Below, piece after piece: positions 4,385-27,263 of a stretch of DNA of 27,817 bases. The notes under the pieces were generated by a model. The model had not been told where the DNA came from. It ran no database searches and saw only the letters and a list, made by a program, of their open reading frames with translations. The translations under genes and the position numbers were made by a program. How positions within the stretch are numbered: the stretch's first letter is position 1; every line of letters starts with the position of its first letter. Origin of the DNA: a virus; the IMG/VR virus record IMGVR_UViG_3300028025_005025, positions 1 to 27,817 of that record, one strand, 5' to 3'.

Positions 4385-5311
4385 TTAGTCGTCTGCGAGA
4401 CTCGAGAAATAACTCATCGTGTCATCTTCATCATCATCAGTATTCCATGGCGGTGTATCACTCGCCTTGGACGCTGCTGGTGCAGACTTCATCTTAGTTT
4501 CAACGAACAGTTCGTCTTCAGCATCGAGAGGAGTAGTCCTTTCGGCAGTAGGAACACGAGCACCAGTCGAGAGAACAGCACTCAACTTGTTCTTCAGTTC
4601 GTCGTATGACTTGAAGTTTGAAGGATCCAGGAACGCATTAAGCGAATGGGTCTTACCCCAAATCTGCTCCAACTTATCTTCGTTATCGTCGAGGGGAGTT
4701 GCACCGTCGAATTCTGACTTATCGTAGTTACGATAACCTTCTACCTGACGAATGCGCAACTTGAAGTTAGCACCTTCCCAAAGGTCGAACGGATTAACAG
4801 GCTTCTCGTCTTCAAACGTCGGTTGCATCACGTCCTTAATCTTATCGAAGATCTTCTTACCATACTTGTAGAGGAAGACCTTACCTTCATTCTCTGGATT
4901 TGCGGGATCGCGAATCACAAGAACGTTGGAGATGTAAGAAAGGCGACGCTTTTGCTTACGAGCAATTTCCTTGTTCGCTTCGATACCTGAGTTCCAAAGT
5001 TCGGAATTCAGTTCGCCAACAGGATCGGGTTTGTTAAGGGTAGTAAGCGAATTTTCGATATACCACTTACCAGTTGGACCTTGGAAACCATGGTCCCAAA
5101 TGCGAACCCACGGAAGTTCTTCACCTGCAGGAGCAGGGAGGAAACGAAGCACTGCTTGACCGTTGCCTGCCTTATCGACAGTCGGTTTCCAGAAACGATC
5201 ATCGTCTCCACGCTTTTCTGTAGTGGGGTTTGCGATTGACTCAACTGCCTTCATGAGTGAGTCGAAATTTCCGCGATTCTTGCGGAGGTCAGATAGTGAA
5301 TTATTTGACAT
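4385..5311 (-). CDS. 32: Single-stranded DNA-binding protein gp32
   Basis: A 308-residue homologue of T4 gp32 (301 residues), which coats single-stranded DNA during replication, recombination and repair. Matching core segments are D-K-A-G-N-G-Q-A-V-L-R-F-L-P (46-59), H-G-F with G-K-W-Y-I-E (74-86), P-E-N-E-G-K-V-F with Y-G-K-K-I-F-D-K-I, and W-E-G-A-N-F. The C-terminal tail is acidic and Ser-rich (D-D-D-E-D-D near the end), as in T4, where the tail contacts gp59 and other partners. The protein contains no cysteine: the zinc module of T4 gp32 is replaced by P-D-P-V-G-E at about 95-100, so the T4 zinc site is lost. The ATG at 5311 follows an AAGGA site. It lies at the end of the gp33-gp59 run, next to its loading partner. 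Confidence 0.95.
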   Translation of the reverse strand: MSNNSLSDLRKNRGNFDSLMKAVESIANPTTEKRGDDDRFWKPTVDKAGNGQAVLRFLPAPAGEELPWVRIWDHGFQGPTGKWYIENSLTTLNKPDPVGELNSELWNSGIEANKEIARKQKRRLSYISNVLVIRDPANPENEGKVFLYKYGKKIFDKIKDVMQPTFEDEKPVNPFDLWEGANFKLRIRQVEGYRNYDKSEFDGATPLDDNEDKLEQIWGKTHSLNAFLDPSNFKSYDELKNKLSAVLSTGARVPTAERTTPLDAEDELFVETKMKSAPAASKASDTPPWNTDDDEDDTMSYFSSLADD

Positions 5312-5346
5312 ATGTATTGTCCTTATGTTTGCGTTGTATGTTGTTT

Positions 5347-5514
5347 TTACTTTGTATCATAATATAAGTCGTCGTCGGAATCATCTTCCCGATTACTATA
5401 GTATTTATACAAATTGTTTTTGCTTTTACGTATTTTATTTACGTCTTTTTCATTATGACGAATGCGGTCAGAACCACGATCTTCATAATAATCGTTTCTA
5501 CGAGACTTACCCAT
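5347..5514 (-). CDS. Small highly charged protein between gp59 and gp32
   Basis: A 55-residue ORF starting with M-G-K-S-R-R and ending with an acidic/Tyr stretch (D-D-S-D-D-D-L-Y-Y). It begins 2 bases after the gp59 stop and ends 35 bases before the gp32 start, filling an otherwise empty gap in the same direction. The basic N-terminal half and acidic C-terminal half suggest a nucleic-acid or gp32/gp59-associated role, but that is only inference from position and charge. I do not recognise a family. It contains a TATAAATA late box in its coding sequence. Confidence 0.65.
   Translation of the reverse strand: MGKSRRNDYYEDRGSDRIRHNEKDVNKIRKSKNNLYKYYSNREDDSDDDLYYDTK
5402..5409 (-). promoter_or_regulatory. 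T4-type late promoter box upstream of gp32
   Basis: TATAAATA on the minus strand, the exact T4 late promoter consensus, about 90 bases before the gp32 start. It lies inside the 55-residue ORF, where it encodes part of Y-K-Y-Y, so coincidence is possible. It could give late expression of gp32. Confidence 0.45.
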
Positions 5515-5516
5515 AG

Positions 5517-6101
5517 TTAGTGTACCACCGTCCCAATCTCCTGTTCTAGTTGGCGGATATAGTAATCTTTGTCAATTTTGACAAAGGGTTTATATTTCTT
5601 TACCAAATGCACGAAGTCATTCCAAATAAAATCATTCGATAAAGAACTATAGTCGGTATTCTCTATTATACCTATTTTTGCCAAAATAGCAATAGATTCT
5701 AGAGAAATCTTTTTACCAAGATAAAGTTTTATTACTTTAGGATGTTGTCCGTCAATTACTTCAAATGGATCACCGTCTGCATAGAGAGTCTGGATATCTT
5801 GTTTAAAAGTGTATCCCAATTTCTGCATACGTATCTGCCACTCTGCATAGACTTCATTTGCCTCTGCATCGAAGACACCACCCCACTGATTCCCAGACAC
5901 AAAATTAGCAACTAGAAAATCAATGATCTCAGTTTTAGTTTTTGTTTCTGCAAGTTTGCGCAGAGCAAATAAGTCTTTGCGTTTCAGAAATGCTTCTCTT
6001 GAAACCTTCACCCCCTTACGGGATTTGGTAATATCGAAATCAGGTCTAGTGAAATGTAATCTCAATGAGAGATACAATTGATACACTTGAAGTGAGTCCA
6101 T
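5517..6101 (-). CDS. 59: Replicative helicase loader gp59
   Basis: A 194-residue protein resembling T4 gp59 (217 residues), which binds forked DNA and gp32 and loads the gp41 helicase. Supporting segments are the N-terminal L-Q-V-Y-Q-L-Y-L-S-L-R-L-H-F, then F-D-I-T-K-S-R-K-G-V-K-V, F-L-V-A-N-F-V-S-G-N-Q-W-G-G, and the C-terminal I-W-N-D-F-V-H-L-V-K-K-Y-K-P-F. The start ATG at 6101 overlaps the gp33 stop (TAATG), so translation is probably coupled. It is followed by a small ORF and gp32, its known partner in T4. All parts of the family length are present. Confidence 0.9.
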   Translation of the reverse strand: MDSLQVYQLYLSLRLHFTRPDFDITKSRKGVKVSREAFLKRKDLFALRKLAETKTKTEIIDFLVANFVSGNQWGGVFDAEANEVYAEWQIRMQKLGYTFKQDIQTLYADGDPFEVIDGQHPKVIKLYLGKKISLESIAILAKIGIIENTDYSSLSNDFIWNDFVHLVKKYKPFVKIDKDYYIRQLEQEIGTVVH

Positions 6102-6367
6102 TAGAGAGGCAAAACCCCATCATCGTTTTTCAACATGTTGAGTTGCTGCGCTTCGACTCGAATCTTTTCTTTAAGTGATGAACTGATGAGACTAGCAACA
6201 GAGCCCACCTCAATATTTCGCTTCTCGCAGTAGTCTATTAGAATATCCATACAGGGTGTTCTAGATTCTCTTGCAAGTTTCTCAATAAAGATGGAAAACT
6301 CTGCTGCTGTCTTAAATTGCTTTGTAATTAAAAACTCATCAGTTAGTGGAATTTCTTCCGTTGTCAT
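6101..6367 (-). CDS. 33: Late promoter transcription accessory protein gp33
   Basis: An 88-residue protein matching the short gp33 proteins of T4-like marine phages; T4 gp33 has 112 residues. In T4, gp33 binds the RNA polymerase flap and links the sliding clamp to late transcription together with the sigma-like gp55. Visible family features are an acidic N-terminus, the helix around I-L-I-D-Y-C-E-K-R-N-I-E, then A-S-L-I-S-S-S-L-K-E-K-I and A-Q-Q-L-N-M-L-K. Position directly upstream of gp59 supports the call. Its presence agrees with the TATAAATA-type boxes in this window. The ATG at 6367 follows an AGGA site 3 bases after the lysin gene stop. Confidence 0.8.
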   Translation of the reverse strand: MTTEEIPLTDEFLITKQFKTAAEFSIFIEKLARESRTPCMDILIDYCEKRNIEVGSVASLISSSLKEKIRVEAQQLNMLKNDDGVLPL

Positions 6368-6370
6368 AAT

Positions 6371-6991
6371 CTATCCTGCGTAAAAAATATGTCTACCGAT
6401 TTTAGTAACTCGTTGTAATTTCCAACCTGGATTGACATAATCCGCATGGTAGAACAACACGTTATTATTAACTACTATACGCGTATTGATCTCAGAAGTC
6501 AATACTTTTTTCGCAATATCTTTTGCTTCAGCATATAATACTGGGTCTTTGGCAGGTCGACGCATACACGTCCAACTGAACTGACAGACCCTACTTGTTC
6601 TCTGATAAACGACAGAGCAAACGTTTGATGGATATTTTGGATTGCGTGCACGATTCATTGTAACACCAGCAACCGCGATTTTACCCTTTCTGGGTTCATT
6701 ACCTGCTTCGTAGTAGATGTTGTCTGCTAGGCAAGTTATTGCCTGAGAGTTTTGTGACAGGTATTTCTTTTTTTCTTTTTGAATTTTAGTTTGTATAATT
6801 TCTTCTTGTTTTTGTAAGATTTCTTGTTTTTGTCGTTTTACGCTTTCGACTTTCTCATATCCACCGACAGTGTATTCCATTGCGGTGTCTTCGATTCTTT
6901 CTTTTGCATAACTCAATGATATACAATATGTTACAATTACTAGTAAAAATGCAGAAAGAACTTTCAATGTCTTCTTATTGAAGGAAGGCAT
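6371..6991 (-). CDS. Membrane-anchored cell wall hydrolase, SleB family
   Basis: A 206-residue protein with an N-terminal hydrophobic anchor (about 8-28), a Gln/Lys/Glu-rich coiled stretch (about 45-80), and a SleB/hydrolase_2 domain (about 83-206). The domain shows A-D-N-I-Y-Y-E-A-G-N-E (candidate catalytic Glu95), A-V-A-G-V-T-M-N-R, V-C-S-V-V-Y-Q and C-Q-F-S-W. The family cleaves peptidoglycan glycan strands, so this is a probable lysin acting from the inner membrane. I chose ATG 6991, behind GAGGAA, over an upstream in-frame GTG at 7111, which would add 40 residues before the anchor. The gene lies between the tmRNA and gp33. A signal-anchor (SAR-type) export route is plausible but not shown. 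Confidence 0.85.
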   Translation of the reverse strand: MPSFNKKTLKVLSAFLLVIVTYCISLSYAKERIEDTAMEYTVGGYEKVESVKRQKQEILQKQEEIIQTKIQKEKKKYLSQNSQAITCLADNIYYEAGNEPRKGKIAVAGVTMNRARNPKYPSNVCSVVYQRTSRVCQFSWTCMRRPAKDPVLYAEAKDIAKKVLTSEINTRIVVNNNVLFYHADYVNPGWKLQRVTKIGRHIFYAG

Positions 6992-7129: not shown

Positions 7130-7426
7130 GGCGGTTTATTCTGTTTCGAGGGAAACCGCCGAAAACCCAATGACTTACTGCTTACGCAGCAAGGGCAAAG
7201 GCAACGTTATCGTTTGCATTTACTTTTTATGGGCGCTTTACCCAGTCAATCAGTCTACTCTCACCTTCAACTCGCAGTCGAATCCTAAGTACACCCCCAT
7301 CAACTATACACTGGATCATTGAGTATTATCAGGCATCTTACGCCCTCTCCCCAATGTATAGATGGTGGAGGTGAGGGGAGTTGCACCCCTGTCCTACGCA
7401 GCATTCAGTTTGTATCAACAACTGAT
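7130..7426 (-). ncRNA. ssrA: Circularly permuted two-piece tmRNA
   Basis: Read on the minus strand, the acceptor piece comes first: a T-arm (stem 7390-7386 with 7378-7374, 7-base loop TGCAACT), the 3' acceptor strand 7373-7367, discriminator A at 7366 and encoded CCA at 7365-7363. After a 64-base intervening segment the coding piece begins at 7298 with GGGGGTG, followed by GGATTCGAC, the tmRNA 5' signature. The two acceptor strands (7298-7292 with 7367-7373) form 7 pairs, with G-U at the third position, the alanine identity element. The tag frame follows at 7217-7182. The coding piece probably ends after the hairpin 7160-7153/7137-7130. CTGCG after GGATTCGA can pair with CGTAG just before the T-arm, as helix P2 requires. 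tmRNA rescues stalled ribosomes. The outer ends are estimates. Confidence 0.93.
7182..7217 (-). other. tmRNA proteolysis-tag reading frame (ANDNVAFALAA)
   Basis: Starting at the resume codon GCA (7217-7215) the frame reads A-N-D-N-V-A-F-A-L-A-A and stops at TAA (7184-7182). The start A-N-D and end A-L-A-A match the degradation tags added to stalled proteins by bacterial tmRNA. The A-L-A-A end is the usual ClpXP/ClpAP recognition end. The tag is a functional-looking 11 residues, with no sign of decay. Confidence 0.93.
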
Positions 7427-7430
7427 ATTC

Positions 7431-7461
7431 TATTTATACTATAGTTTTGTTCAGAAGTCAA
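7431..7461 (-). promoter_or_regulatory. Combined sigma70-like and late promoter of the tmRNA
   Basis: TTGACT (7461-7456), a 17-base spacer and TATAAA (7438-7433) form a sigma70-like promoter. The -10 is part of TATAAATA (7438-7431), the T4 late consensus. Either mode would start RNA near 7425, just before the acceptor piece. The -35 overlaps the stop of the exonuclease gene. Confidence 0.75.
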
Positions 7462-8132
7462 GCCAAATAGTAACCATTTTCATAATAATCACGAGTTCGA
7501 AGCAATTCTTTTGCCCAGTTGTCTCGCTTCTCGATGAACACCTGTGGTTCATCGCCTTCGACTGCAATAAGAACTACCAACCAAGGAACAGGAATGCCAG
7601 TACGTTCCTCATACATGATAGCATATGCTGCTGTCTGCATAAAGTAGGAACTGATATGTTCTTTCTTCTTTAACTTGTTAGAAGTTTTGAAGTCGATAAC
7701 TGCAAGTTGTCCGTTATATTCGGCAATGCAATCGACGCGACCTGCCATGCGCAGATGGTCGCTATAGAGCGCCAATTCCTGACAATGGATATTATCAATC
7801 GGCATCAGGATGGGCATAAACTTATTGAAAAGTTCTAGATCCAACAGACTGAAATTATGCGCTTGAAAATCAAGATCTTCGTTCTTCAGAAACGATTCAG
7901 TTACATTGTGGAGTTTAGTCCCGCGAGTTGAGGACTGTTTTGAGATTCTGTTCGCTTCTTCTTCGCCAACACGCTTACGCCAAGCAGTAATACCATCTCG
8001 GGATAGAACTGAAAGAACGGTGGTAGCAGAAGGATACGCTACGCCAGAGGCATTAACGTAAACTCTGCTACCATCTTCGTTTGTAGTTGACTGAGCGAAA
8101 TCTTCATATTCATATATCGTTTTAAACATCAT
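7458..8132 (-). CDS. PD-(D/E)XK family exonuclease
   Basis: A 224-residue protein with a RecB/Cas4-like nuclease core: the A-G-R-V-D-C strand with Asp134, then V-I-D-F-K-T-S with Asp147 and Lys149, Glu119 upstream, and the conserved R-G-T-K-L-H block (70-75). Family members are metal-dependent exonucleases; in T4-like marine phages such genes are annotated as exonucleases that may act in recombination or host DNA breakdown (general family knowledge). It begins with two adjacent ATG codons at 8132 and 8129 and has its own sigma70-like promoter whose predicted start point falls on the first ATG. Translation may therefore be leaderless; no Shine-Dalgarno sequence is visible. Its 3' end carries the tmRNA -35 element. 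Confidence 0.85.
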   Translation of the reverse strand: MMFKTIYEYEDFAQSTTNEDGSRVYVNASGVAYPSATTVLSVLSRDGITAWRKRVGEEEANRISKQSSTRGTKLHNVTESFLKNEDLDFQAHNFSLLDLELFNKFMPILMPIDNIHCQELALYSDHLRMAGRVDCIAEYNGQLAVIDFKTSNKLKKKEHISSYFMQTAAYAIMYEERTGIPVPWLVVLIAVEGDEPQVFIEKRDNWAKELLRTRDYYENGYYLA

Positions 8133-11719: not shown

Positions 11720-12500
11720 ATAAATGCCTCGCAAATAATTCATGAACTTCCTCGCGTGGATGTGCATATTGACAATCTTTATGTATGTCTGGATCTATAA
11801 AATCGTGTAAATGGGTTTCCGCATCAATCGAATATTTAAGAGATTCACTTAATATTTCATCAAATACTGGCATAAACTCCCAACCTCCTATCATGTCGAC
11901 ATAATAGTTATGCACCTTACTATCATACTTCATAAATTTTACAGGAACGACAGGTTGTATTATGAAATCAAATTTTCGTTCTTTGCATGTTGCAATGATT
12001 TGTTGCAGAGAAAAACCATATGTTTGCATTATTTTATATGAATTGTAGAAAATATCGATATTATTAAACGGAGAGCATATCACTCTGGTCAAATCACGTC
12101 CATCTGGTCCAAAATGTAAATACCGTTGTGGAGAAGTTAAACCAAAAAACAATAAGTCTGTTTGGGGATTTAACTCTGCTTTATGTAGAGCTTGTAAAAA
12201 TAGTAGAACTGAGTGCTCTAGAGCATGACCATGCCATGCATAACTCTTATACTCTAAATCTAACCGATCAGACAATTTAGCAGCATATGCACGCTTGGAA
12301 GATATATCAGAAAGTTGCCTTAAAGATTTACCCGTGGTTTTCTCCATATAAAGATCAAATTTAGATATAGAACCAATTTTTTTCTTCAGAGAATTACACT
12401 CGTCAAATGAAATATTTAATAATTCATGATCAATTATTTCATGACCAGAAGTAAATGAACATCCAAACGAAACTAATCTTGTTTTTCCTTCAAATTTCAT
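11700..12500 (-). CDS. SGNH hydrolase-like protein
   Basis: A 266-residue protein with the N-terminal block S-F-G-C-S-F-T-S-G (residues 11-19), resembling SGNH/GDSL block I, a central F-F-G-L-T-S-P-Q-R segment, and a C-terminal A-H-P-R-E-E-V-H-E-L-F-A resembling the His-containing last block. SGNH proteins usually act as esterases, acetyltransferases or acyl hydrolases on glycans and lipids. The canonical Asn and Gly blocks are not clear, so the catalytic assignment is tentative. The ATG overlaps the stop of the last radical SAM gene. Position in the modification run suggests adding or removing an acyl or similar group on the same product (inference). Confidence 0.6.
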   Translation of the reverse strand: MKFEGKTRLVSFGCSFTSGHEIIDHELLNISFDECNSLKKKIGSISKFDLYMEKTTGKSLRQLSDISSKRAYAAKLSDRLDLEYKSYAWHGHALEHSVLLFLQALHKAELNPQTDLLFFGLTSPQRYLHFGPDGRDLTRVICSPFNNIDIFYNSYKIMQTYGFSLQQIIATCKERKFDFIIQPVVPVKFMKYDSKVHNYYVDMIGGWEFMPVFDEILSESLKYSIDAETHLHDFIDPDIHKDCQYAHPREEVHELFARHLYDRITS

Positions 12501-13642
12501 TCTCTATGATCTTTCGGCATTGGTCTTGGATTTTCGACTTCTTTTCCATCTAAGAATGAAGATAGACTATTTCGTAAATCAACACATTGTTTCCGCATTT
12601 TACCGTTTTCGGGCAACGAAGGTATTTCAGCATCATATAATGCGATTACTTCTTCGAGTTCTTTACGCGACATGTTATGACATGCCATGTGGTCAGGATA
12701 ATACAAGTAATTAAAATTTAAAGGGTTTGAATTATTAAATCGCACATATTGATTCAATATTTTGTAAAGGGGAATTGCATCTCTTACGTTCATCTTACTT
12801 ACTGTCATAACAACAGAAACATTTGATGTATGTAAATCGAATTCCTTTGCTATAATTTCTTCTTGGCAGTATTTTAAGTTATCCAATACTTGATCCCATT
12901 TAGCACCCACTCTAAGTTTCTCGAATTTATCGCCGTAGGAATCTATACTAAAGGATAGAATAATTCCTCTAAATTTTTTCCAAATATCAATTTCTTTTCT
13001 GGTGGGTCTTTGCGTTCCATTTGTATTGTATAGCAATATTGTTTTTTCAGGATTCGGTAATTGATCTAACCACTCGAAGTGTGTCTTGTTTAATAGAGGT
13101 TCTCCGCCCGCAATATCAATTCTGAAATATCCATTTTCACCTGGATTCAATTTTTTATATTGTTCCACATCATAAGACCAAGCAATCTCTTCGTTTAGTC
13201 GATCGTATGTTGCTCTATCCAATTTTCCTATGCGCAACAGTTCTGTGGATATTGCAGTTGAACACGCAGGAGTACAAATTGTGCATCGAAGATTACACAA
13301 TCTTCCAGTTTTTAACTGCAAGTATTCAAGGGAAACATCTTCAGGTGGAGTTTGCATTGTTCCATTATGCAACATCCACATATCTTGTAGTCGTTTACTA
13401 TCTCTTCCCTCATCTTCTGCAAATTTACATTGATTACATCCACTCGGCCAAATTCCCTGTGAGAGTTGATCTCGATATTCCTGGAATTCCTCTTGTAAAA
13501 TTGTTTCTGCGTGTAGTATATCGACAAGTTTACTTTTTTTGTCTTCTCTATGAATGAAAAGGCAGCATGGAGTTAAGTAACCATCGGTATCAACATGAAC
13601 CGATTTCCACATAGATGGACAATAAATTTTAGTTTCGCTCAT
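12497..13642 (-). CDS. Radical SAM protein E with N-terminal twitch-type Cys motif
   Basis: A 381-residue radical SAM protein, fifth in transcription order. C116-N-L-R-C120-T-I-C123 is the cluster-binding motif and D-I-A-G-G-E-P is the SAM-binding G-G-E-P. Before the radical SAM domain lie C8, C26-C27 and C69-x2-C72, in the order C...P-C-C...C-x2-C with D-G-Y before the C-C, resembling SPASM/twitch auxiliary-cluster motifs but placed at the N-terminus. I recall an NCBI family of twitch-domain radical SAM proteins with this order. I chose ATG 13642 (ATGA overlap with the upstream stop) over an in-frame TTG at 13657. The substrate is unknown; SPASM/twitch enzymes commonly act on peptides or complex small molecules. 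Confidence 0.85.
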   Translation of the reverse strand: MSETKIYCPSMWKSVHVDTDGYLTPCCLFIHREDKKSKLVDILHAETILQEEFQEYRDQLSQGIWPSGCNQCKFAEDEGRDSKRLQDMWMLHNGTMQTPPEDVSLEYLQLKTGRLCNLRCTICTPACSTAISTELLRIGKLDRATYDRLNEEIAWSYDVEQYKKLNPGENGYFRIDIAGGEPLLNKTHFEWLDQLPNPEKTILLYNTNGTQRPTRKEIDIWKKFRGIILSFSIDSYGDKFEKLRVGAKWDQVLDNLKYCQEEIIAKEFDLHTSNVSVVMTVSKMNVRDAIPLYKILNQYVRFNNSNPLNFNYLYYPDHMACHNMSRKELEEVIALYDAEIPSLPENGKMRKQCVDLRNSLSSFLDGKEVENPRPMPKDHRE

Positions 13643-14928
13643 ATCGACATATACCAATCTCTAACTTCTGGATCGATGATCGCAGTTAAACTTTCAAAGG
13701 TGTATTTTCCTTTGAGAAATTTTTCTCTGTATTCCCAGTTTTTCTTTATAGTTTTAATAGTTTCTAGATCAGAATATATTTTGTTTTGACTTTTATCTAT
13801 CTTATATGATTGTAAGATAGCAATCGTTCTTTCTTTTCCTCGTAAAGAACAATTTTCAAATTTATTGATGGCATGATTAACTATTCTATCAAAAATTTCT
13901 TGCGGATATAGTCTAATATCCAAAAACCCTTGGTAAGAATCTGCAGTAATATTACTGAACAATTTATGTGAGTGAAGTTCTGGATCATACGGTTCATAGA
14001 AGTCGAACCACCTATCAATATCCATCAATACAGGAGCAGACATGATACTAGAAAGTCCAAATTGATTTTTTTCATTCAGTCTAGAATGATATTCTTTCCA
14101 GTTTGTAGATACAGCATCCCATGATGCACCGTCTCTACAAAACTCAAATGTTTCATGAGTTCCATCTAAACTCGCCTGTATACTTGGTTGATAAAACTGC
14201 AACAAATCTGGAATAAGTTTACCGTTCCAATAAAGTCGAGTCAGATTAGTATTGTAATGAATAAAGATTTTTTGTAAATATGAAGGATCTTCGGATTGAA
14301 TCTGTAGTAATTTGTCCACTACTTTCCAATGCACATGAGACATCATCGGTTCACCACCAGCCCAATAGATCTTGGTCAATCTCCGCTGGTCCAAACAATC
14401 AATAATTTCTTGCGCCATAGAATCTTCAAATTTATAATCTATTACAAATTCTTTACCAGAAGGCCACATTTTTGGTGCATGACCCCACATTTCTCTGAAC
14501 AGAGAATTATGTTTAGAACTGTAAATACTACCACAACTTAAACATTGTAAATTACAATGGATAGTTCTATAATCAAAATATACAGGCAATTCAGAAATAG
14601 AACCATCTTCTTCGGTTTTACTTATAGCATCTGAGATCATTTCTTCTTCGGTCTGATGATCTTTCCAACTCTGTTGTCGCAAAGATTGTATATTTTGCTC
14701 TTCGTTCTTATAACAAACCGAACAAGCATTAATCTTTTCCCCTGCGATCATTCTTTTCCGAACATCTTTCATCACAGAAGAATTCCAGAAATCTTTAGTT
14801 TGTGTTTTTTCCTCTGGAACAATATCCTCTGATATACAGCAAAGTTTTCGCTCATACTGAGATCCGATATAACTATGGACCCATGGATATCTACAGATAC
14901 TTTTATTATTTTCAGTATTGATAGTCAT
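13639..14928 (-). CDS. Radical SAM protein D with N-terminal twitch-type Cys motif
   Basis: A 429-residue radical SAM protein. N-terminal cysteines are C12 (C-R-Y-P-W-V-H), C30-C31 and C69-x2-C72 after W-N-S-S-V-M-K-D-V-R, a clear SPASM-like spacing. The radical SAM motif is C125-N-L-Q-C129-L-S-C132 and the SAM site is A-G-G-E-P. The start ATG lies inside the end of gene C (17-base overlap). It differs from the other four in the length between the auxiliary and main motifs, where an acidic insert (about 90-115) occurs. No C-terminal SPASM motif is seen. The substrate is unknown. Confidence 0.85.
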   Translation of the reverse strand: MTINTENNKSICRYPWVHSYIGSQYERKLCCISEDIVPEEKTQTKDFWNSSVMKDVRKRMIAGEKINACSVCYKNEEQNIQSLRQQSWKDHQTEEEMISDAISKTEEDGSISELPVYFDYRTIHCNLQCLSCGSIYSSKHNSLFREMWGHAPKMWPSGKEFVIDYKFEDSMAQEIIDCLDQRRLTKIYWAGGEPMMSHVHWKVVDKLLQIQSEDPSYLQKIFIHYNTNLTRLYWNGKLIPDLLQFYQPSIQASLDGTHETFEFCRDGASWDAVSTNWKEYHSRLNEKNQFGLSSIMSAPVLMDIDRWFDFYEPYDPELHSHKLFSNITADSYQGFLDIRLYPQEIFDRIVNHAINKFENCSLRGKERTIAILQSYKIDKSQNKIYSDLETIKTIKKNWEYREKFLKGKYTFESLTAIIDPEVRDWYMSI

Positions 14929-16105
14929 AATTGAATATATCTTTCCACGGACCCATTTTTCTACTCAGTTGAACAACGTCTAAGTATTTATTACCTTGAT
15001 TCCAAAGTTTATCATCTTCAGATTCAACACGAAGATACGATTTCATTGTTTCAGTAAGAATCCAGTTTGAATACGGAGAGTCTTCGTATAGCAACTTTAA
15101 ATCTTCTTTGAATTGTTTTGATGCACAATTCAACGAGAGATACTCAGGAAACACAATGAAATTCTGATTGATAGTTGTGTGGGGTTTGAGTTTAGTGAGC
15201 GGAACTGCCCATTCATAAAACTCAGGTAGATATGGTGCATTCAACCATTGAATGCTACATGTAATGTTTATAGCAGCGATATGAGGATTTTCTAGAAACT
15301 TTTGAATATTTCTATTCGCCTTTTCCCAATCATTTGGGTATCGAATAAACTTATTTCTATCACCTACTGCATCCATACTACAACCAAGCGTAACAACCTT
15401 AAAGTGTTTCCAATAATCGCTGAACGATTCATCATAAGTTGTGCAATTGGTGTTGTAACTGATATGAATGTTACTAGCGACACCCCATTCTATTAGTTTT
15501 TCAAGTAATTTCCAGTGCATCGGCATAATAAACGGTTCGCCGCCATTAATATACAGATACCTTAAAGTGTCTTTGTGTGCATATAGTTGATCAATAATAC
15601 TTTCGTCGAACCACTGAAACAATTCATGTTCAGCACTGTTTTTTGTCATAAATGGAAGTTGGTCAGACCATTCTTTATAATCAGACACAAGGGAAGAACT
15701 AGAGTCAGGATAACACATCAAACACTTTAAGTTACAAAGGTTACTTAATCTGATATCTAGAAATTCTAGTTTAGGTTTCTCAATATTTTCCCATCGATTA
15801 TTTTCAGTAATTCGTCGCGACTTTCCACCATATTGCTCAATCTTATAACAACCCTCGCAAGCAGATGGATACTGTTGGGATAACATTTCTTCGCGAATTC
15901 TGTTCGTCGAATAACTATTAAAGATTTCATCAAATGTGTGTGTTTTTAAATTTAGCAATTCTCCTTGACTATCTTTGGCGAATCCACTATCTGGACCATC
16001 CATTTTAGCAACACAACAAATAGAAACGTTGCCGTTGGGATGTAGATTCATATGATTGAACGGGAGGGTACAATACCCGTCATTTCTTAGAGAGTGTTGA
16101 ACCAC
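14912..16105 (-). CDS. Radical SAM protein C with N-terminal twitch-type Cys motif
   Basis: A 397-residue radical SAM protein. Auxiliary cysteines are C12 (C-T-L-P-F-N-H), C30-C31 after P-N-G-N-V-S-I, and C83-x2-C86; the main motif is C124-N-L-K-C128-L-M-C131, with N-G-G-E-P for SAM binding. The start is GTG 16105 behind GAGGAG, which lies inside the end of gene B; the GTG has better ribosome-site support than any nearby ATG. Of the five, this one most closely follows the textbook N-terminal twitch pattern. The reaction is unknown. Confidence 0.85.
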   Translation of the reverse strand: MVQHSLRNDGYCTLPFNHMNLHPNGNVSICCVAKMDGPDSGFAKDSQGELLNLKTHTFDEIFNSYSTNRIREEMLSQQYPSACEGCYKIEQYGGKSRRITENNRWENIEKPKLEFLDIRLSNLCNLKCLMCYPDSSSSLVSDYKEWSDQLPFMTKNSAEHELFQWFDESIIDQLYAHKDTLRYLYINGGEPFIMPMHWKLLEKLIEWGVASNIHISYNTNCTTYDESFSDYWKHFKVVTLGCSMDAVGDRNKFIRYPNDWEKANRNIQKFLENPHIAAINITCSIQWLNAPYLPEFYEWAVPLTKLKPHTTINQNFIVFPEYLSLNCASKQFKEDLKLLYEDSPYSNWILTETMKSYLRVESEDDKLWNQGNKYLDVVQLSRKMGPWKDIFNYDYQY

Positions 16106-17412
16106 TGTAAAAACTCCTCTGGGAATACATCTATTGGTTTATTTCTACGAGAACTATATTGAGTATAGAATCTTTTAAAGTCTCTTTTGTTTTTTTCTAG
16201 ATCTGTGTCATATGAATGTGGTGTTTCAATAACGTCAACATAAGAAATCAATCGCTCGATATCACTTCTTTCTGTAAACATGAGATTTGGATCGTCTCTA
16301 TTTAATTCACACCAATCACTAAGTTTTTGATATACATTTTCTCTGAGAATGTCTGGCAAAACGGTAAGACTTTGAAATGCAGGGAAACGCAAGAAATTAA
16401 TACTCATACTAATGCGATTGCCATACTTCTGTTTCCATTGCATGACTTGATCCATAAACTCAGTAATATTAAATAGACACAAAGCATTAATTGTCATCAT
16501 AACAACAATTCGTTTTACATTAGATTCGGAAAGAATTCGTTCAACGTTATTTTTCCATTCTTCATAGACTAATCCGTCACGAATATACTCTGCTTGCGCT
16601 CCAGTAGTTTCCATACTAGTAAAGATAGTTAAGTTATTGATATTAAATGAACTTTCTATCAATCTATCAATGATTGCTTTTTTCGCACCAAGATTGGAAT
16701 TGATACCCAATTCAAACTGATATTTTTCCTCAGCAAACATGTCAATTAGTTTCCAAACATCGACATTCATCAGAGGTTCGCCGCCTGTAATGCGCAGAAC
16801 ACGCAATTCTTTGCTTAACTCAGGCCACCATTCCCAGAATGCTTTAATGAATGGATTTTCTGATTTTTCATAACAATTGTTGGCAGTACCATCATGCTTG
16901 AATGCTCCACCTCCCGATGTTTCAAGATCATAATGCCCAAACTTCTTGATGTCTCGTTCCCATGTTGTGCTGAAGTTTGCATTACAATAACTGCAAGCAA
17001 AATTGCAGGTGCGATCAAACATAATCTCTAGTGTCGGTGGAACAACACGAGCATCTGCGGGTATATCAAACCAATTCTGCATTTCTTCTTGTGTAAACTG
17101 TAAAGATTTAAATACACGATCTGATATGTATTCAGGTCCCATACTTTCGATCTTCCAACAATAGTCACACTCTGTTGGTTTATGACCTTGCTGCATCAAT
17201 TCCCGCATCTTAATTTTATGGTCAGTATTATGCAACTTGGCAGGATCTTCTGCTACTTGTGCAGCGTCCATTTTGTGAACTGGAGGAAGGTGACAACTAC
17301 TAGTCTCTCCGCTGTTTAACCAAAGAGTACTGTTACCCCATTTCGCACCACAAAAAGATGCGGATTTAGAATTCAGTATACTGTTTCTAAATTTTAGTAG
17401 ACCGTCATCCAT
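16087..17412 (-). CDS. Radical SAM protein B, C-H variant of the twitch motif
   Basis: A 441-residue radical SAM protein closely resembling gene A: both have F-C-x-A-K-W, S-G-E-T-x-S-C-H, H-N-T, E-C-D-Y-C-W-K-I-E and S-D-R. The auxiliary set is C21, C40-H41 and C82-x2-C85, with His replacing the second Cys of the usual C-C. The main motif is C136-N-F-A-C140-S-Y-C143 and the SAM site is R-I-T-G-G-E-P-L-M. A-B similarity suggests tandem duplication inside the operon followed by divergence. The ATG overlaps the stop of gene A by a few bases. The substrate is unknown. Confidence 0.85.
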   Translation of the reverse strand: MDDGLLKFRNSILNSKSASFCGAKWGNSTLWLNSGETSSCHLPPVHKMDAAQVAEDPAKLHNTDHKIKMRELMQQGHKPTECDYCWKIESMGPEYISDRVFKSLQFTQEEMQNWFDIPADARVVPPTLEIMFDRTCNFACSYCNANFSTTWERDIKKFGHYDLETSGGGAFKHDGTANNCYEKSENPFIKAFWEWWPELSKELRVLRITGGEPLMNVDVWKLIDMFAEEKYQFELGINSNLGAKKAIIDRLIESSFNINNLTIFTSMETTGAQAEYIRDGLVYEEWKNNVERILSESNVKRIVVMMTINALCLFNITEFMDQVMQWKQKYGNRISMSINFLRFPAFQSLTVLPDILRENVYQKLSDWCELNRDDPNLMFTERSDIERLISYVDVIETPHSYDTDLEKNKRDFKRFYTQYSSRRNKPIDVFPEEFLQWFNTL

Positions 17413-18829
17413 AGTATTCGTCTTCCATTAAATATGCAAGTTCGGGAAACGTTTCAACAAATGATGTTTTTCTACGTTTATCTAAACTGCGAGTATAGTT
17501 TCTAAAGTCTTTATAAAGAGACTGAGGTTCTTTTGTCGATCTCATATAGTCAACTAATCGTTTTACTTGATCGACTTCTTCCAAATAAAATGTTTCTTGG
17601 GTCGATTTTTTTGGTGTTAATTTATGCGTCTCGACGAAATCGATCCACATGTCACCAAACCTCTGCTTATCTTCATCTGATAGTAGTGTCAAACATAACA
17701 TCCGAGGCCAACGAAGATATGACAAGTGGGTTCTTACTCTAAATTCGTGCAACTTGCTATAATACTGCAATCGCATTTCTCTGATATACCCGAGATATTC
17801 TAGAAATGTCGGAGCACTAGTCAAATTAATTGTGGTCATATAATGTAACCGTGTTGTATTCGGTGTATTATCCAGAACATATTTACAGTTCTTCTTAAAC
17901 TCATCAAATTGCATACCAAATCTAGAATACTCGGCATGCTTGCCAGTGCTCTCGAGGGATGTATAAACGTCGAACAATTTAATATTACACGAGATTCTAT
18001 TGATGTACTCTACAAGTTTTTCGACCAATTTATCAGGAACATTGAGATTAGTATTAATCGCAAGTGTCAAATTCGGATTGGGATTCTCTGCGATGTAGTC
18101 AAGAACTCGCCAAGTATGCTTACTGAGTAAGGGTTCGCCGCCAGTAATTCTAAACGTATGGAGATTGGGATAGAGGTCAGGCCACCACTTCCAGAAAGCA
18201 TCAATATATGGATTTTGTTCTTTACGATGGATTGGCAGTTTACCAACTTCCTTCAACCAATCAAGATCATGTAAGTTGAAGTCTTCAAGTTCTATTGGTC
18301 CATGTGTTTCGATTTCTTCTTGCCAACGAGAAGAACTTTCGGGACTACAATAGACGCACTTAAAATTGCAAGTTGATTCGAATGCAACCTCGAGATAAGA
18401 AGGATCTATGTTAGCACCTTCTCCTGACTCGACAATTTCTTCGATATGCGGTAATGCCCAAGAATAAGTGGATTTATAGATTCTATCGCTCATCCAATCC
18501 TTATTCAGATTCTCAATTTTCCAGCAATAGTCACACTCTTTAGTTTGAATTCCATTTAGCATATCCTTTCTTGCTGCCATTTTGACCGCTGTGTTATGAA
18601 TGCCTCTTGGATTATCCTTAATGTCTTCTAGAGTAATTTTGTGTCTTGATGGGTGGTGACAACTATGTGTCTCTCCACTATAAAGCAAGATTGTAGACTG
18701 CTTCCATTTCGCAGCGCAAAACGAAGGACTGACAGCATTAATCTGTTCTCGTTTTTCTTTTAGAAAATTCCAGTAAGAATCTACTGAGTGAACATCTAAC
18801 TTATGCTCTTCGTGTGCACCATCGCTCAT
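17405..18829 (-). CDS. Radical SAM protein A, C-H variant of the twitch motif
   Basis: A 474-residue radical SAM protein, first of the five. Auxiliary residues are C38 (F-C-A-A-K-W), C57-H58 (S-G-E-T-H-S-C-H) and C99-x2-C102; the main motif is C154-N-F-K-C158-V-Y-C161, with R-I-T-G-G-E-P-L-L at the SAM site. It shares its whole architecture with gene B, including W-K-I-E after the last auxiliary Cys. Start ATG 18829 overlaps the methyltransferase stop (TAATG). The C-H arrangement may give a cluster with a His ligand or leave an open iron site for substrate (inference). Confidence 0.85.
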   Translation of the reverse strand: MSDGAHEEHKLDVHSVDSYWNFLKEKREQINAVSPSFCAAKWKQSTILLYSGETHSCHHPSRHKITLEDIKDNPRGIHNTAVKMAARKDMLNGIQTKECDYCWKIENLNKDWMSDRIYKSTYSWALPHIEEIVESGEGANIDPSYLEVAFESTCNFKCVYCSPESSSRWQEEIETHGPIELEDFNLHDLDWLKEVGKLPIHRKEQNPYIDAFWKWWPDLYPNLHTFRITGGEPLLSKHTWRVLDYIAENPNPNLTLAINTNLNVPDKLVEKLVEYINRISCNIKLFDVYTSLESTGKHAEYSRFGMQFDEFKKNCKYVLDNTPNTTRLHYMTTINLTSAPTFLEYLGYIREMRLQYYSKLHEFRVRTHLSYLRWPRMLCLTLLSDEDKQRFGDMWIDFVETHKLTPKKSTQETFYLEEVDQVKRLVDYMRSTKEPQSLYKDFRNYTRSLDKRRKTSFVETFPELAYLMEDEYYG

Positions 18830-20936: not shown

Positions 20937-21115
20937 GCACATCAATCCACGATCAGGAACTCGATACGCATTTTGAGAAAGTAGAACAAGATCTGTATAG
21001 TTTAGAACATAGTTATACGATAAACCCAAAACAAGAACCTGTGTTCTACGATCTCAAGAACCCGAACACATTCCTACTTACTTGGTCGTTGCTCGATAAA
21101 CGCCATCGAAGTTAG
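20933..21115 (+). CDS. Small protein 5 of the plus-strand cassette
   Basis: A 60-residue protein starting M-S-T-S-I-H-D-Q-E-L, coupled to the previous gene by an ATGA overlap. Its last 38 bases overlap the 3' end of the convergent adenylate cyclase gene, and no terminator separates them. The basic end (K-R-H-R-S) differs from the acidic rest. Coding is likely from position and coupling; function is unknown. Confidence 0.6.
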   Translation: MSTSIHDQELDTHFEKVEQDLYSLEHSYTINPKQEPVFYDLKNPNTFLLTWSLLDKRHRS

Positions 21116-23129
21116 CAGGAGGTTCGCCCTCCATGCGCTCGAGCATCATATCATAATAATTGACCAACTCTCCTTGCCAGCACTTCTTTAAGTCGCTGGC
21201 AAACATTTTAGCAGTCTCCCATTTACCTTCGCGATATAGTTGCAAGAACTTCTTATGTTGCAATTCGCCAGGAGCATCAAAAAATGGGAATGCTGTATAG
21301 ATTCGCGCAGGTTCTGTCTTACCTTTCACTGCAATCAGGTCAAGTTCTACGACTTGGTATACATCCCCAACCAATTCGGCCGTTTGTGGTCCGAGGACGA
21401 GTTTGACACCATAAGGTTTGGACTGACCTTCGAGACGAGCAGCCAGATTAACCCCATCACCCAAGCAAGTATAATCAAAACGCTGGTCGCTGCCCATATT
21501 ACCAACAACCACAGTGGCAGTGTTAATACCAAGACCCATGCCAAAAGCGGGAATGCCTTCTCTCGTAACTTCTTCATTAAAAGTCTCCAAATCCTTTAAC
21601 ATTTGGAATGCTGTTCGCACAGCATCCAATGCATGTTGTTTATTATCTACAGGTGCATTCCAGAATGCCATTTGCGCATCACCGATATACTTATCAAGTG
21701 TACCTTTATTCTCTAAAATTGCTCTTGTCATGACTGTCATGTAGCGGTTCATGATCTTTGTCAGACCCTGAACGTCTTCGCCGTAGTGCTCAGAAATAGT
21801 AGTGAACCCACGAACGTCTGTGAACATGATCGACAGTTCTCTAGAATCACCACCCAGTTGCAATAGTTCTGGTTGACGTTGTAGTTGTGCTACGAGATCT
21901 GGTGACAGATAGGTTCCGAATTGCTTCTTGATTTGTTGTTTTTGTAGGAACTCACTGATAAACTTAGCAGTGTAGATGTGCATATAGATTAATGCAATGG
22001 CAAAGACGTTAAACGAAACATCGAATAAAATATTCTGCGTTTGAAATAAATATGTTGGTAAGTATAGATATCCACCTAGTAGAATTGCAATATATACTAT
22101 TGAGAATCTAAAACGAGAAAGAATAATCAATGACAGAGCAAGACCAAGAAAAACTGCAAGATCCGCAAGTTGACTCCACACAGGAATCGCAACCGAATCT
22201 CCTTTTATCAGAGTTTCAAGAATTGACGCTTGCAACTGATGGGGATGTTGCGCACCTGCGGGAGTCGCTACTGGATTCGCAATACCAGCAGCAGTTACAC
22301 CAACTACGACGATTTTACCACTCAGGTCAGGTAAAGGATCCGATCCAATTTCGTATGACTGAAATTGGTAATTAGGATTAATGAACACACGACCATATTC
22401 ATCTGTTTTTATGGTATCAAATTGAGGAACACGTAATGCTTCAACACCAGTCTGATTTATCTTTGCTTGATACGAAGAGTCTCCTGCAGCTACACGCAGC
22501 ATCTCTATCGCAAATGCAGGGTAATATTCGCCTTTTGATTGAGATAGAAGAGGAACTCGCCTTACAACCCCGTCAGTCTCGGGTAGAGTCGACGTTATAC
22601 CAACACCGACGGCTGCTTCTTGCAGAACTGGGATATTACTTAGAACGCATGGGTATTGAGGAAGAAATTCAGACGGTTGTCCGTCGCCGATTACGGCAAC
22701 TCCAGTCCGAGCAATATTCTGCACCCCCTTACATGAATCGGTTGTTGTCTGACTCAGGACTACTGGATACTGATTTAGGGTATCCGCAAGAACTCGATCA
22801 GTCCCCATCCGATCAGACTCAGGCATAAGTATAGTGCTACCAACAAGAGCAGCCCCTCTGCCATAAATGTCCCCAACAATTTTAGCATGGACTTCCCTCG
22901 GGAAAGGCCACTGTCCGTATTTCTCAATTGCTTTCTCCCCGATATTGACGGTTACAATTTGTTCAGATTGCGTCGGCGAACCGAGCATCAAATAATCATA
23001 AAACTTCAATCTCGTGGATTCAACCATGTATGGATCAGATAGTTTTACCCAAAGAAGAATACCAAAAGTAAATAGTGCCAACCAAGGCGAGAGTAAAACT
23101 TTCTTAGTTTTTTGTATAAGAGTATCCAT
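21078..23129 (-). CDS. CHASE2-domain transmembrane adenylate cyclase
   Basis: A 683-residue membrane receptor: one N-terminal transmembrane helix (about 13-30), an extracytoplasmic CHASE2 sensor domain (about 35-310, with F-Y-D-Y-L, W-P-F-P-R and V-G-V-T-A-A-G), three membrane helices (about 320-400) and a class III cyclase domain (about 430-620). The cyclase has metal-binding Asp438 (F-T-D-V-R-G-F) and Asp484 (Y-I-G-D), Lys480 and Thr554 at the purine-selecting positions, and Asn561/Arg565 (V-N-L-A-A-R), so it looks active and ATP-selective. It would raise cAMP in response to an external signal. It is the last gene of the curli-type operon, overlapping the preceding gene by 26 bases. CHASE2 cyclases are common in bacteria but unusual in a lytic phage. 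Confidence 0.9.
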   Translation of the reverse strand: MDTLIQKTKKVLLSPWLALFTFGILLWVKLSDPYMVESTRLKFYDYLMLGSPTQSEQIVTVNIGEKAIEKYGQWPFPREVHAKIVGDIYGRGAALVGSTILMPESDRMGTDRVLADTLNQYPVVLSQTTTDSCKGVQNIARTGVAVIGDGQPSEFLPQYPCVLSNIPVLQEAAVGVGITSTLPETDGVVRRVPLLSQSKGEYYPAFAIEMLRVAAGDSSYQAKINQTGVEALRVPQFDTIKTDEYGRVFINPNYQFQSYEIGSDPLPDLSGKIVVVGVTAAGIANPVATPAGAQHPHQLQASILETLIKGDSVAIPVWSQLADLAVFLGLALSLIILSRFRFSIVYIAILLGGYLYLPTYLFQTQNILFDVSFNVFAIALIYMHIYTAKFISEFLQKQQIKKQFGTYLSPDLVAQLQRQPELLQLGGDSRELSIMFTDVRGFTTISEHYGEDVQGLTKIMNRYMTVMTRAILENKGTLDKYIGDAQMAFWNAPVDNKQHALDAVRTAFQMLKDLETFNEEVTREGIPAFGMGLGINTATVVVGNMGSDQRFDYTCLGDGVNLAARLEGQSKPYGVKLVLGPQTAELVGDVYQVVELDLIAVKGKTEPARIYTAFPFFDAPGELQHKKFLQLYREGKWETAKMFASDLKKCWQGELVNYYDMMLERMEGEPPANFDGVYRATTK

Positions 23130-24558
23130 TACATGGTCCAGTCGTGCATGTTATTTCCATTTTCGCAGAGTCAGCGACAGTCAAGTTATTTTGTGTGACA
23201 GTTACACCAATTCCAGGACTATTTAGTAAAAGTTGAAATTGCTTTGCAGACGCACCTAATTGAGTAACAGATGCAGTAACTCCACCAAATGGAGCATTTA
23301 TTTCCAAGAAGTGACTGCCAGTTCCCTGTTGTAAGGTGCTGATATTATTAGAGTTTCCTAAAGCATTGATAAACAAGGATTTTCCGTTAGCATCTTTTTG
23401 TTGTGCAGTTATTTGATTGCTTAGACCATTGGTCACAATCTCAGCATATTTACCATTATATTGTTGTGTCAACGATACTATATTGTTATTACCAGTCACT
23501 GACACTTCTGCTAGGTTTTTACCGATTGGTGTTGTTGCTGTACCTTGATTAATAGTAATACTGTTGCCACTACCATTGATCAACATTGCTTGTGCACCAT
23601 TAACTCCACGAATCTGATTCTGCTTAGAGAACTGTTCAATGTAAACGGAGTTGTTAGAACCAGTAGCATTAATATAGATTGAGTTTTGTGTAATGGAATT
23701 TGTTTGATTAATCTTTAGTGTTTGGTTAGCACTAATGCTTGCCAGCGGATAAGTTGGTTCAGGTGGTGTTGGTGCGGGAGGTGGTGGAGCAGAAGAACCA
23801 GCATTTGGTTGAACTGGAGTAAATGTTGTTCCATTCAGTAGCGTTGAACCTTGCATCTGATCAATAAACAGAATTGGCGACAATGCTGTATCTCCAAGAT
23901 TGAACGAAGCAAATCCTAATAGATAATTTCCATCAGCGGGAACTGTGAACACCGCAACTTGCCAACCAGTAGCACCATATGAGTTTGTCGAGTAGTTACC
24001 AGTTCCAGGATTAGTAAATCCGAGAAGAGCAAAGTTTTGAGTTTGCCCATTGATAGTGGCAGTTCCTGGACCACCTGTAACTGTGATCATCGAACCATCA
24101 TTGTATGGAACATAATCAGTCGAGACATACTGCCAAGCATAAGTGTATGTCACACCTGCTTGAAGAAATACTGTCCTGCTAATAGAAGTTGCGTTTGTAG
24201 GATACATATTACCATTGGAGTAAATGGTATTTCTAATTGATGTAATCGTGGAACTTTGTAATCCGAGATTTGTCATGGCACTATCAAATCCAGGAGAACC
24301 TCCCCCTGCTTGTAGTGACACCATGTAAGAACCATATGGAGTAACTGTCCAGCACTTACCTCCACCTGGACAATAGTTAGTCATACCAGTTGTAACTTGA
24401 ACACCCGAACCATCTGGACCCCATGTGGTTCTTGCAGTGGTCGAACCATTACTCACAGTCCAACCAGTATAGTTACCATTCTCGAAACCGTAGTTTGTAA
24501 CTTGCGCAAATGTTGGCATTGCAAAGAACAGTAGAAAGAGAGCAATTAGTCTTTTCAT
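23104..24558 (-). CDS. Secreted fusion of a beta-rich domain with curlin-like repeats
   Basis: A 484-residue exported protein: signal peptide 1-18 (cut after P-T-F-A), a Gly/Thr/Tyr-rich N-terminal domain (about 20-250) with a jelly-roll or carbohydrate-binding look (F-E-N-G-N-Y-T-G-W near the start), a Pro-rich linker (about 255-270), and a C-terminal part (about 275-470) of repeated strands with G-x-x-N-x-x and Q spacing as in curlin repeats. One Cys pair lies in the N-terminal domain and another near the end. It is probably a CsgG/CsgF-exported substrate that presents a binding domain on an amyloid-like base (inference). It overlaps the FecR-domain gene by 4 bases. Binding specificity cannot be read. 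Confidence 0.75.
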   Translation of the reverse strand: MKRLIALFLLFFAMPTFAQVTNYGFENGNYTGWTVSNGSTTARTTWGPDGSGVQVTTGMTNYCPGGGKCWTVTPYGSYMVSLQAGGGSPGFDSAMTNLGLQSSTITSIRNTIYSNGNMYPTNATSISRTVFLQAGVTYTYAWQYVSTDYVPYNDGSMITVTGGPGTATINGQTQNFALLGFTNPGTGNYSTNSYGATGWQVAVFTVPADGNYLLGFASFNLGDTALSPILFIDQMQGSTLLNGTTFTPVQPNAGSSAPPPPAPTPPEPTYPLASISANQTLKINQTNSITQNSIYINATGSNNSVYIEQFSKQNQIRGVNGAQAMLINGSGNSITINQGTATTPIGKNLAEVSVTGNNNIVSLTQQYNGKYAEIVTNGLSNQITAQQKDANGKSLFINALGNSNNISTLQQGTGSHFLEINAPFGGVTASVTQLGASAKQFQLLLNSPGIGVTVTQNNLTVADSAKMEITCTTGPCNGYSYTKN

Positions 24559-25700
24559 CTTGCACCTGTTTCTTGCATTACTGTAATATTACCTTGCGGT
24601 CTACCAGTTCCAGATGTTGTCCACTTGTCGTCCATAAAGTTATAGACATCCACAAGTCCGTTCTGCACAGAAACAACTTGTGCTTCTGATCCCTTTTCTA
24701 ACCAGATAGTGATTGCTTGTTGCTTGTCCTCGGATAAACGAGTATACACCCACCCGACCTGAACGTTTTTCTTAAATGTAGGAGACACGTTAGTATAAAC
24801 TGTTTCCGCTGGTTTCGTACCCTCATTAAATTCAGCATAAACATCTAAAAGTTCTTGGGGTGTTGCTGGACGAAGCATCGCTATGGAAACTTGTTCAACG
24901 TTATCATTTGTGCCTGCATCTGGATCTTTATTGTCGTCGGATGCTGCTTTAGAAGGATTGACAAATTTCTTTAAACTGTCTCTTGCAACTTGCAAGAGAC
25001 TTTGACCATCATCTGTTTCCAGCGGAACAATCTGAACGTTGTTGTCTAGTGACTTAATCAACGGATTGATGACCACTGGTGGAGCAGGTGGTGCAAAGTT
25101 GTTCTCAACAACAGTTGCTTGGAATGGTTTATCTAATGTAACTACGCCCGATGCCGTAATGACATCAATCATACCATTAGGACATTCGGCAGTTTGTTTT
25201 GTAATATCTAATTCGTTATAGCATTCGGGAACCAGCACGACCGTAGAACGACCTGCTTCATCAACCGACATAACGAAGTCTGTACCACGAACTGCGATAG
25301 TAGCAGTTGGTGTGCGAATGTTTACGCCTTTTCCGTTTCCGTGGGCGATTTTACCTGAAGTGTATCTAACTGTTCCAAGAGCAACTCGTAACCCGAGTTT
25401 GCCTTTTGATTTCCCTCCACCATCATACACAAAGTCATCCACAAGAAGTCGCGAGTTTTCTGTAATATTAACTGTAGTCGAATCATTGAATGTAATCCTA
25501 AATCTACCTTGAGAGTTGGTGGACACTGTGTCCATCTTTTCAACACCAGAACCTTTAGTTGCTGGTGTGGTCTTGGCGCCACGCTTAATAGCACCACCAC
25601 CTCTGAAATCTGTTATCGACCCAATACCAGCAAAGGCAGGAGTCGATAACAGAAATATCAGTAGAAGATTAGTGACCAGTTTTGATATTAAACGTGCCAT
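24555..25700 (-). CDS. Secreted FecR-domain protein
   Basis: A 381-residue protein from ATG 25700, giving M-A-R-L-I-S and a signal peptide cut after P-A-F-A at residue 24; the upstream in-frame start at 25745 would place 15 extra residues before the signal and is rejected. A FecR domain (about 55-165) shows G-R-F-R-I-T-F-N-D-S, L-L-V-D-D-F, V-R-Y-T-S-G-K-I and I-R-T-P-T-A-T-I-A-V-R-G-T-D-F. After a Pro-rich segment (about 210-225) comes an Asp/Asn-rich linker and a C-terminal domain. Unlike anti-sigma FecR, no cytoplasmic sigma-binding part is present, so it is probably a periplasmic or outer-surface partner of the curli pore or the CHASE2 sensor (inference). Confidence 0.85.
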   Translation of the reverse strand: MARLISKLVTNLLLIFLLSTPAFAGIGSITDFRGGGAIKRGAKTTPATKGSGVEKMDTVSTNSQGRFRITFNDSTTVNITENSRLLVDDFVYDGGGKSKGKLGLRVALGTVRYTSGKIAHGNGKGVNIRTPTATIAVRGTDFVMSVDEAGRSTVVLVPECYNELDITKQTAECPNGMIDVITASGVVTLDKPFQATVVENNFAPPAPPVVINPLIKSLDNNVQIVPLETDDGQSLLQVARDSLKKFVNPSKAASDDNKDPDAGTNDNVEQVSIAMLRPATPQELLDVYAEFNEGTKPAETVYTNVSPTFKKNVQVGWVYTRLSEDKQQAITIWLEKGSEAQVVSVQNGLVDVYNFMDDKWTTSGTGRPQGNITVMQETGAR

Positions 25701-27253: not shown

Positions 27254-27263
27254 GGTCATCTCC

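Follow-up and report, generated by a model that had tools for sequence, protein, structure and literature searches.

A complete permuted tmRNA gene in a T4-like phage contig and the probable interchange of its intervening segment among related phages

A 27.8-kb virus contig (27,817 nucleotides; this whole stretch is called the window here) carries a complete permuted tmRNA gene on its minus strand, at positions 7424-7130. From comparisons of sequence, we consider it probable that this gene specifies a working phage tmRNA, and that the intervening segment (IVS) discarded from its middle serves as an interchangeable slot in a group of related phages, occupied by a non-coding hairpin in the window and by other hairpins or by protein genes in relatives. 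The contig is T4-like by its Pfam matches (gp32, gp59, gp33 and PhoH). The features of the gene and its surroundings are as follows.

7458-8132, minus strand: PD-(D/E)XK nuclease, upstream neighbour (PF12705)
7431-7461, minus strand: promoter-like TTGACT-17-TATAAATA, combining a sigma70-like -35 with a T4-late-like TATAAATA (sequence; conservation of TATAAATA)
7363-7424, minus strand: acceptor half, with 5' pairing strand, T-arm, acceptor 3' strand CACCTCC, discriminator A and encoded CCA (RF04321 alignment; coordinates)
7374-7390, minus strand: T-arm (sequence)
7373-7363, minus strand: acceptor 3' strand and ACCA (sequence)
7299-7362, minus strand: IVS of 64 nt, a non-coding hairpin with a 12-bp terminal helix (fold; exchange analysis; helix test)
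7130-7298, minus strand: coding half, with acceptor 5' strand, D-like GGATTCGAC, tag frame and 3' pseudoknot stem (covariance models; sequence)
7298-7292, minus strand: acceptor 5' strand GGGGGUG, with G-U at pair 3 (sequence)
7285-7277, minus strand: GGATTCGAC, D-like (sequence)
7182-7217, minus strand: tag reading frame ANDNVAFALAA*, resume codon GCA (ARAGORN; sequence)
7130-7160, minus strand: 3' pseudoknot stem GGCGGTTT/AAACCGCC around CCCTCGAAACAGAAT (RF01849 match; stem conservation)
6371-6991, minus strand: cell-wall hydrolase (Hydrolase_2), downstream neighbour, likely ATG start at 6991 (PF07486; start codon position)
6101-6367, minus strand: gp33-like late-transcription coactivator (PF16805)
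5517-6101, minus strand: gp59 helicase loader (PF08993)
4385-5311, minus strand: gp32 ssDNA-binding protein (PF08804)

The identification of a phage-encoded permuted tmRNA, two-piece by its architecture, had been made in a preliminary description of this DNA, and two covariance models and ARAGORN now agree with it on a T4-like contig. The Infernal search with Rfam models that had been proposed as a check returned both models above their cut-offs: RF04321 (tmRNA_permuted) matches 7423-7182 on the minus strand with 94.4 bits (cut-off 47, E 2e-17), and RF01849 (alpha_tmRNA) matches 7465-7130 on the same strand with 71 bits (cut-off 50), covering model positions 1-355, including the 3' pseudoknot, to the last position. 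The RF04321 score of 94 bits is below the ∼140-167 typical of alphaproteobacterial tmRNAs, which marks the window RNA as divergent. ARAGORN reports a permuted tmRNA at 7455-7091 with the tag ANDNVAFALAA*.

The anatomy is likewise as first described. The acceptor half lies upstream of the coding half with the IVS between them, and coordinates and sequence agree on an acceptor stem of seven pairs (GGGGGUG/CACCUCC) that joins across 64 nt with G-U at the third position. The T-arm, CCA and GGATTCGAC can each be located intact in the sequence, the tag is complete by both ARAGORN and direct inspection, and the earlier impression that nothing is decayed extends to the 3' pseudoknot stem. The alanine identity set is present (G3-U70, discriminator A and CCA), and the tag frame has an Ala resume codon (GCA), a hydrophobic -AA end and a stop. 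The precursor is predicted to fold into a hairpin of -50 kcal/mol that contains the acceptor stem, the T-arm and the 12-bp IVS helix, and it is more stable than 200 of 200 dinucleotide shuffles (z = -2.96). Among 100 distinct sequences the 3' stem is kept despite sequence change, with 7.6 bp in a sequence's own helix against 5.8 bp with swapped partners.

The location of the gene is also conserved. The order nuclease, tmRNA, gp33, gp59 and gp32, apart from some additional genes, is found again in Pelagibacter phage Mosig, Methylophilales phage Melnitz and relatives from IMG/VR, and the tmRNA is annotated as SsrA in both Mosig and Melnitz. The cell-wall hydrolase that stands between tmRNA and gp33 in the window is absent from that position in these two phages. 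Given the metagenomic origin of the contig and the presence of several host-like genes in the window (curli, cyclase), an assembly chimera or host contamination had to be considered; we regard this as extremely improbable, since the isolate genomes of Mosig and Melnitz have the same neighbours, the curli block also occurs in Melnitz and HTVC008M, and tmRNA cores are identical across independent metagenomes.

Two further gene blocks in the window deserve description. Curli-type blocks are known in pelagimyophages, and the one found here (21078-27713, minus strand) encodes CsgF, CsgG, a curlin-like protein, FecR, a second curlin-like protein and a CHASE2-cyclase, in the order seen in Melnitz and HTVC008M. 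Five consecutive large ORFs at 12497-18829 (minus strand) include four with Radical SAM matches and one with a weak Fer4_12 match, two of them with SPASM; a methyltransferase-like ORF and a carbamoyltransferase lie close by. One member of this block (16087-17412) had no match among 50,697 phage records; the block as a whole resembles a phage-borne modification pathway.

Upstream of the gene, TTGACT-17-TATAAATA occupies 7461-7431, so that the transcript probably starts near 7424 and 7425-7461 would be promoter rather than RNA. The downstream part, TATAAATA, which we take to be a T4-late-like element, is found upstream of 95 of 152 distinct phage tmRNAs (shuffle expectation 2), and its distance to the end of CCA is 73-80 nt in most of these 95 relatives, chiefly 76-77. 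Within the window it occurs upstream of the tmRNA and of gp32 only, a count not above chance window-wide. The near-fixed distance makes the late expression envisaged in the preliminary description plausible; early expression is equally possible, as TATAAATA overlaps a sigma70-like promoter with its -35 element in the window.

Evidence on the IVS comes from relatives gathered via gp32 homology, the tag region, the resume region and an IVS-ORF pattern, from which 154 distinct tmRNAs were parsed (L plus a number denotes the locus of a related phage in this comparison set; L083 is Melnitz). Their IVSs range from 3 to 499 nt, compared with 64 nt in the window. In 37 ANDNVAFA-tagged tmRNAs, identity of the IVS is uncorrelated with that of the backbone (r 0.01 and 0.07), whereas the 5' (A) and 3' (B) parts of the backbone correlate with each other at 0.80. 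A 67-nt IVS is common to L087, L117, L157 and L162, which have different backbones: L087 and L117 have it in identical form with B halves that agree at 83%, and it is 97% identical in L157 and L162, whose A and B parts are 58% and 68% identical. Conversely, L087 and L098 have A and B parts that are 100% identical and unrelated IVSs. L015 and L129 likewise share a 122-nt IVS on different backbones, as L096 and L139 share one of 65 nt, and the window IVS itself recurs in L089, L099, L163 and others, in combination with either of two tags and either of two 3' regions. Since L157 and L162 keep distinct acceptor pairs (CGCCTCC/GGGGGCG and CACCTCC/GGGGGTG), the IVS ends, or their immediate vicinity, are where the breakpoints fall. 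With the same combinations recurring in many independent metagenomes, the contigs suggest that the IVS has been exchanged between phages independently of the surrounding tmRNA.

What appears to be retained through these replacements is a helix at the IVS ends. Among 120 distinct tmRNAs, 92% of 11 pairs are formed, against 57.6 ± 1.2% when partners are shuffled, and a single position shows as many as six pair types; the terminal repeat measures 10.5 bp within an IVS and 4.0 bp across IVSs. Pairing in the T-arm and the acceptor stem was a requirement of the parser, which deprives these two helices of value as independent evidence; neither the IVS helix nor the 3' stem played a part in selection. 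As the IVS would be discarded, its replacement may be tolerated provided that the ends form a helix of 11-12 bp beyond the acceptor stem.

Some members of the set differ in other respects. L095 and L138 have an IVS of just 3 or 5 nt, and near-identical backbones carry one of 53 nt. L031, L036, L041, L042 and L049 belong to another permuted tmRNA type without encoded CCA, with IVSs of 3-24 nt and tags such as DNSYMSNANSYALAA. In L015 the start of the tag has gained a GCC codon (AANDNVAFAGYALAA), apparently through duplication at the resume site.

Many relatives' IVSs hold a protein gene fitted to the gap, with a Shine-Dalgarno sequence (SD) just after CCA and frequently a TGA one base before the acceptor strand. 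In samples chosen regardless of IVS, an SD-led frame of 25 codons or more is present in the IVS of 16 out of 91; the corresponding count in shuffled IVSs averages 3.0 and reaches at most 9, so chance may account for a few of the 16. Staphylococcal-nuclease-like ORFs lie in the 453-455-nt IVSs of L347, L359, L392 and L410 (PF00565, 2.6e-12), an HNH endonuclease ORF of 156 aa fills the IVS of L420 and ends in TGA one base before the acceptor strand, and that of L206 holds an HNH ORF matching a homing endonuclease family (phrog_655, E 3.5e-14). A class of small membrane proteins (...WSICADITLLAGIIYLVFF) occupies the IVS of 17 tmRNAs, and further ORF classes occur; a tblastn search for the nested membrane-protein gene in isolate phages gave no match. 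Selection for coding is evident in five ORF classes, with pN/pS of 0.12, 0.26, 0.14, 0.33 and 0.25 and substitutions favouring third codon positions; a sixth, at 0.60, is uninformative. The Rfam model spans the entire gene-bearing RNA in L347, L359, L392, L420 and L224 (634-687 nt), and the sequences of L420 and L392 (the latter on a 144-kb contig) were inspected directly. Not every nested frame stops within the IVS, as the L392 nuclease frame continues past the acceptor strand, and nested genes also extend beyond alpha-type RNAs, one being present in the beta-type L397. The Melnitz tmRNA (5229-5681) has an IVS with an SD-led ORF (MFKWLSKTR..KIPKYLSGTRSVYD) that has no stop inside the IVS, and similar YLSG ORFs occur in L268, L292 and L224. 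A Bfd-like [2Fe-2S] identity considered for the ORF of a 134-nt IVS was rejected, there being no Pfam, PHROG or phage match. The window IVS contains no gene.

How the segments move, and whether they profit the phage, can be read in more than one way. They may be mobile elements, intron-like but without splicing, which homing endonucleases drive into the tmRNA gap; ordinary pre-tmRNA processing would remove them, so that no ribozyme would be needed. The HNH ORFs filling the IVSs of L420 and L206, beside which can be set L232 with an 89% identical backbone and an 81-nt IVS, and the decoupling of IVSs from backbones are consistent with this. Most IVSs, however, lack an endonuclease, homologous recombination via CCTCCACCA and GATGGGGG may suffice for exchange, and the Rfam match in L206 does not span the IVS; we therefore hold the mobile reading to be possible and rather unlikely. 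The window IVS in particular was rejected as a free mobile element, its exact 36-nt core occurring in only eight viral stretches, of which the parsed ones lie within tmRNAs. Somewhat more credible, if still short of probable, is a regulatory or cargo slot of benefit to the phage, in which small genes would be co-expressed with the tmRNA and their SD, kept in the IVS helix, would be freed by processing. Among the small membrane proteins, base pairing links the SD (AAAGGAGATTA) to the 3' end of the ORF that it precedes, and the low pN/pS (0.12-0.33) in five classes and the recurrent TGA one base before the acceptor point the same way; against it, many IVSs are geneless, including that of the window. 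A combined and tentative scheme, doubtful as a whole, would make the permuted-tmRNA gap in T4-like phages a landing slot, in which IVS cassettes, some of them bearing homing endonucleases, nucleases or membrane peptides, would spread among phages by way of the tmRNA gene because tRNA processing removes them from the RNA; the excised IVS would be the nested gene's mRNA, and stopless frames (the CxC class, Melnitz) would yield products that are substrates of the same tmRNA.

For the tmRNA itself, the favoured reading of a working phage gene implies the following pathway. A single precursor would be transcribed by the phage from 7424 to about 7130, and by homology host RNase P and tRNA 3' processing would remove the 64-nt IVS, leaving two pieces joined through the acceptor stem and P2 pairing. 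G3-U70 and CCA would permit charging by AlaRS, and host SmpB would deliver the tmRNA to ribosomes stalled on broken mRNAs, which should abound while host mRNA is degraded. The nascent chain would receive ANDNVAFALAA, whose -LAA tail is of the kind recognised by ClpXP. SmpB was not found in six related phage records by a search that detects it in 10 of 14 control genomes, and the action of the tmRNA would thus depend on the host protein. The anatomy accords with ordinary trans-translation; replacement of host rescue by the phage copy, as suggested earlier, would still call on host SmpB.

It had also been suggested that the tag is phage-chosen and that the permuted form hints at host lineage. 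The former is favoured by the exact tag ANDNVAFALAA occurring in none of 84,980 species genomes scanned and weakened by near variants, the nearest being ANDNVAFAVAA and ANDNVAFAAAA, mostly in assorted alphaproteobacterial MAGs; with near tags so spread, host assignment from the tag was abandoned. The latter finds no support: Melnitz infects OM43 and yet has an alpha-type tmRNA (PMC9004378), and the window T-loop (TGCAACT) is unlike those of the alphaproteobacterial tmRNAs listed. That integration and recombination often take place at tmRNA genes, and that the Melnitz gene has been interpreted as alphaproteobacterial in origin (PMC9004378), could suggest a passenger or decaying host copy, gained by recombination and functionless for the phage. 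We think this very unlikely: all elements are intact, the locus is the same across very divergent phages, the 3' and IVS stems are kept through changes, the promoter-like element stays at a near-fixed distance and ARAGORN tags in relatives end in -LAA.

Novelty of the exact form had been left open; its basic form is already published, and the window gene adds a further member to it. Buchholz et al. describe the two-piece tmRNA of Melnitz, and 53 of 133 distinct phage tmRNA structures are two-piece, with marine or aquatic phages accounting for 50 of these (PMC9004378). Like the window, Melnitz and Mosig (PMC9004378; MZ577097, MT647606) are T4-like aquatic phages whose permuted tmRNA gene is flanked by PD-(D/E)XK nuclease and gp33, and Melnitz also has a curli block nearby; both differ from the window in tag and IVS and in lacking the hydrolase between tmRNA and gp33. 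The small ORF in the Melnitz IVS is unmentioned in the available part of PMC9004378. A glutamine riboswitch downstream in the window was rejected (17 bits, wrong strand; 52.8 bits in Melnitz).

Alphaproteobacterial permuted tmRNAs (RF01849; Caulobacter type) share with the window the order of halves, the acceptor stem, the A-N-D-N tag start and the 3' pseudoknot. Matches occur in 270 of 289 genomes, with lengths mostly of 185-250 nt and, among the matches listed, at most 351, and with T-loops of GGCGGTA, GGCAGTA and similar (GGCxGxx). Their IVSs are short and without a consistent terminal helix or ORF (median 30 nt, maximum 48, mean terminal repeat 5.0 bp in 34 parsed best matches), whereas phage T-loops and IVSs are highly diverse. 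For the IVSs the contrast is strong but not exhaustive, since best-scoring matches favour short ones; no 25-codon ORF occurs in the longer alphaproteobacterial IVSs examined (165, 115 and 89 nt).

Group I introns in tmRNA genes, some with LAGLIDADG endonucleases, self-splice from the T-loop (PMC11915505). Like the phage IVSs, they are inserts removed from the RNA that sometimes carry a homing endonuclease; the phage IVSs differ in occupying a natural permuted gap where splicing is unnecessary, and in their HNH, SNase or small-protein cargo. From bacteria or nominal archaea, one permuted-tmRNA IVS with a tRNA-Ala gene and one with a repetitive element have been reported (PMC11915505), single cases for which the available part of that paper describes neither protein genes nor exchange, and endonuclease genes in tmRNA are noted there solely in self-splicing introns. 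In these aquatic phages, the segment cut out of a structured RNA gene appears as a focus of exchange and a place for cargo, offering a way other than introns to house genes within a functional RNA. The case opens to test why lytic phages carry their own ribosome rescue and whether homing acts without splicing. As far as the available accounts in PMC11915505 and PMC9004378 go, the exchangeable, gene-bearing IVS of this phage group is a previously undescribed variant of the permuted tmRNA.
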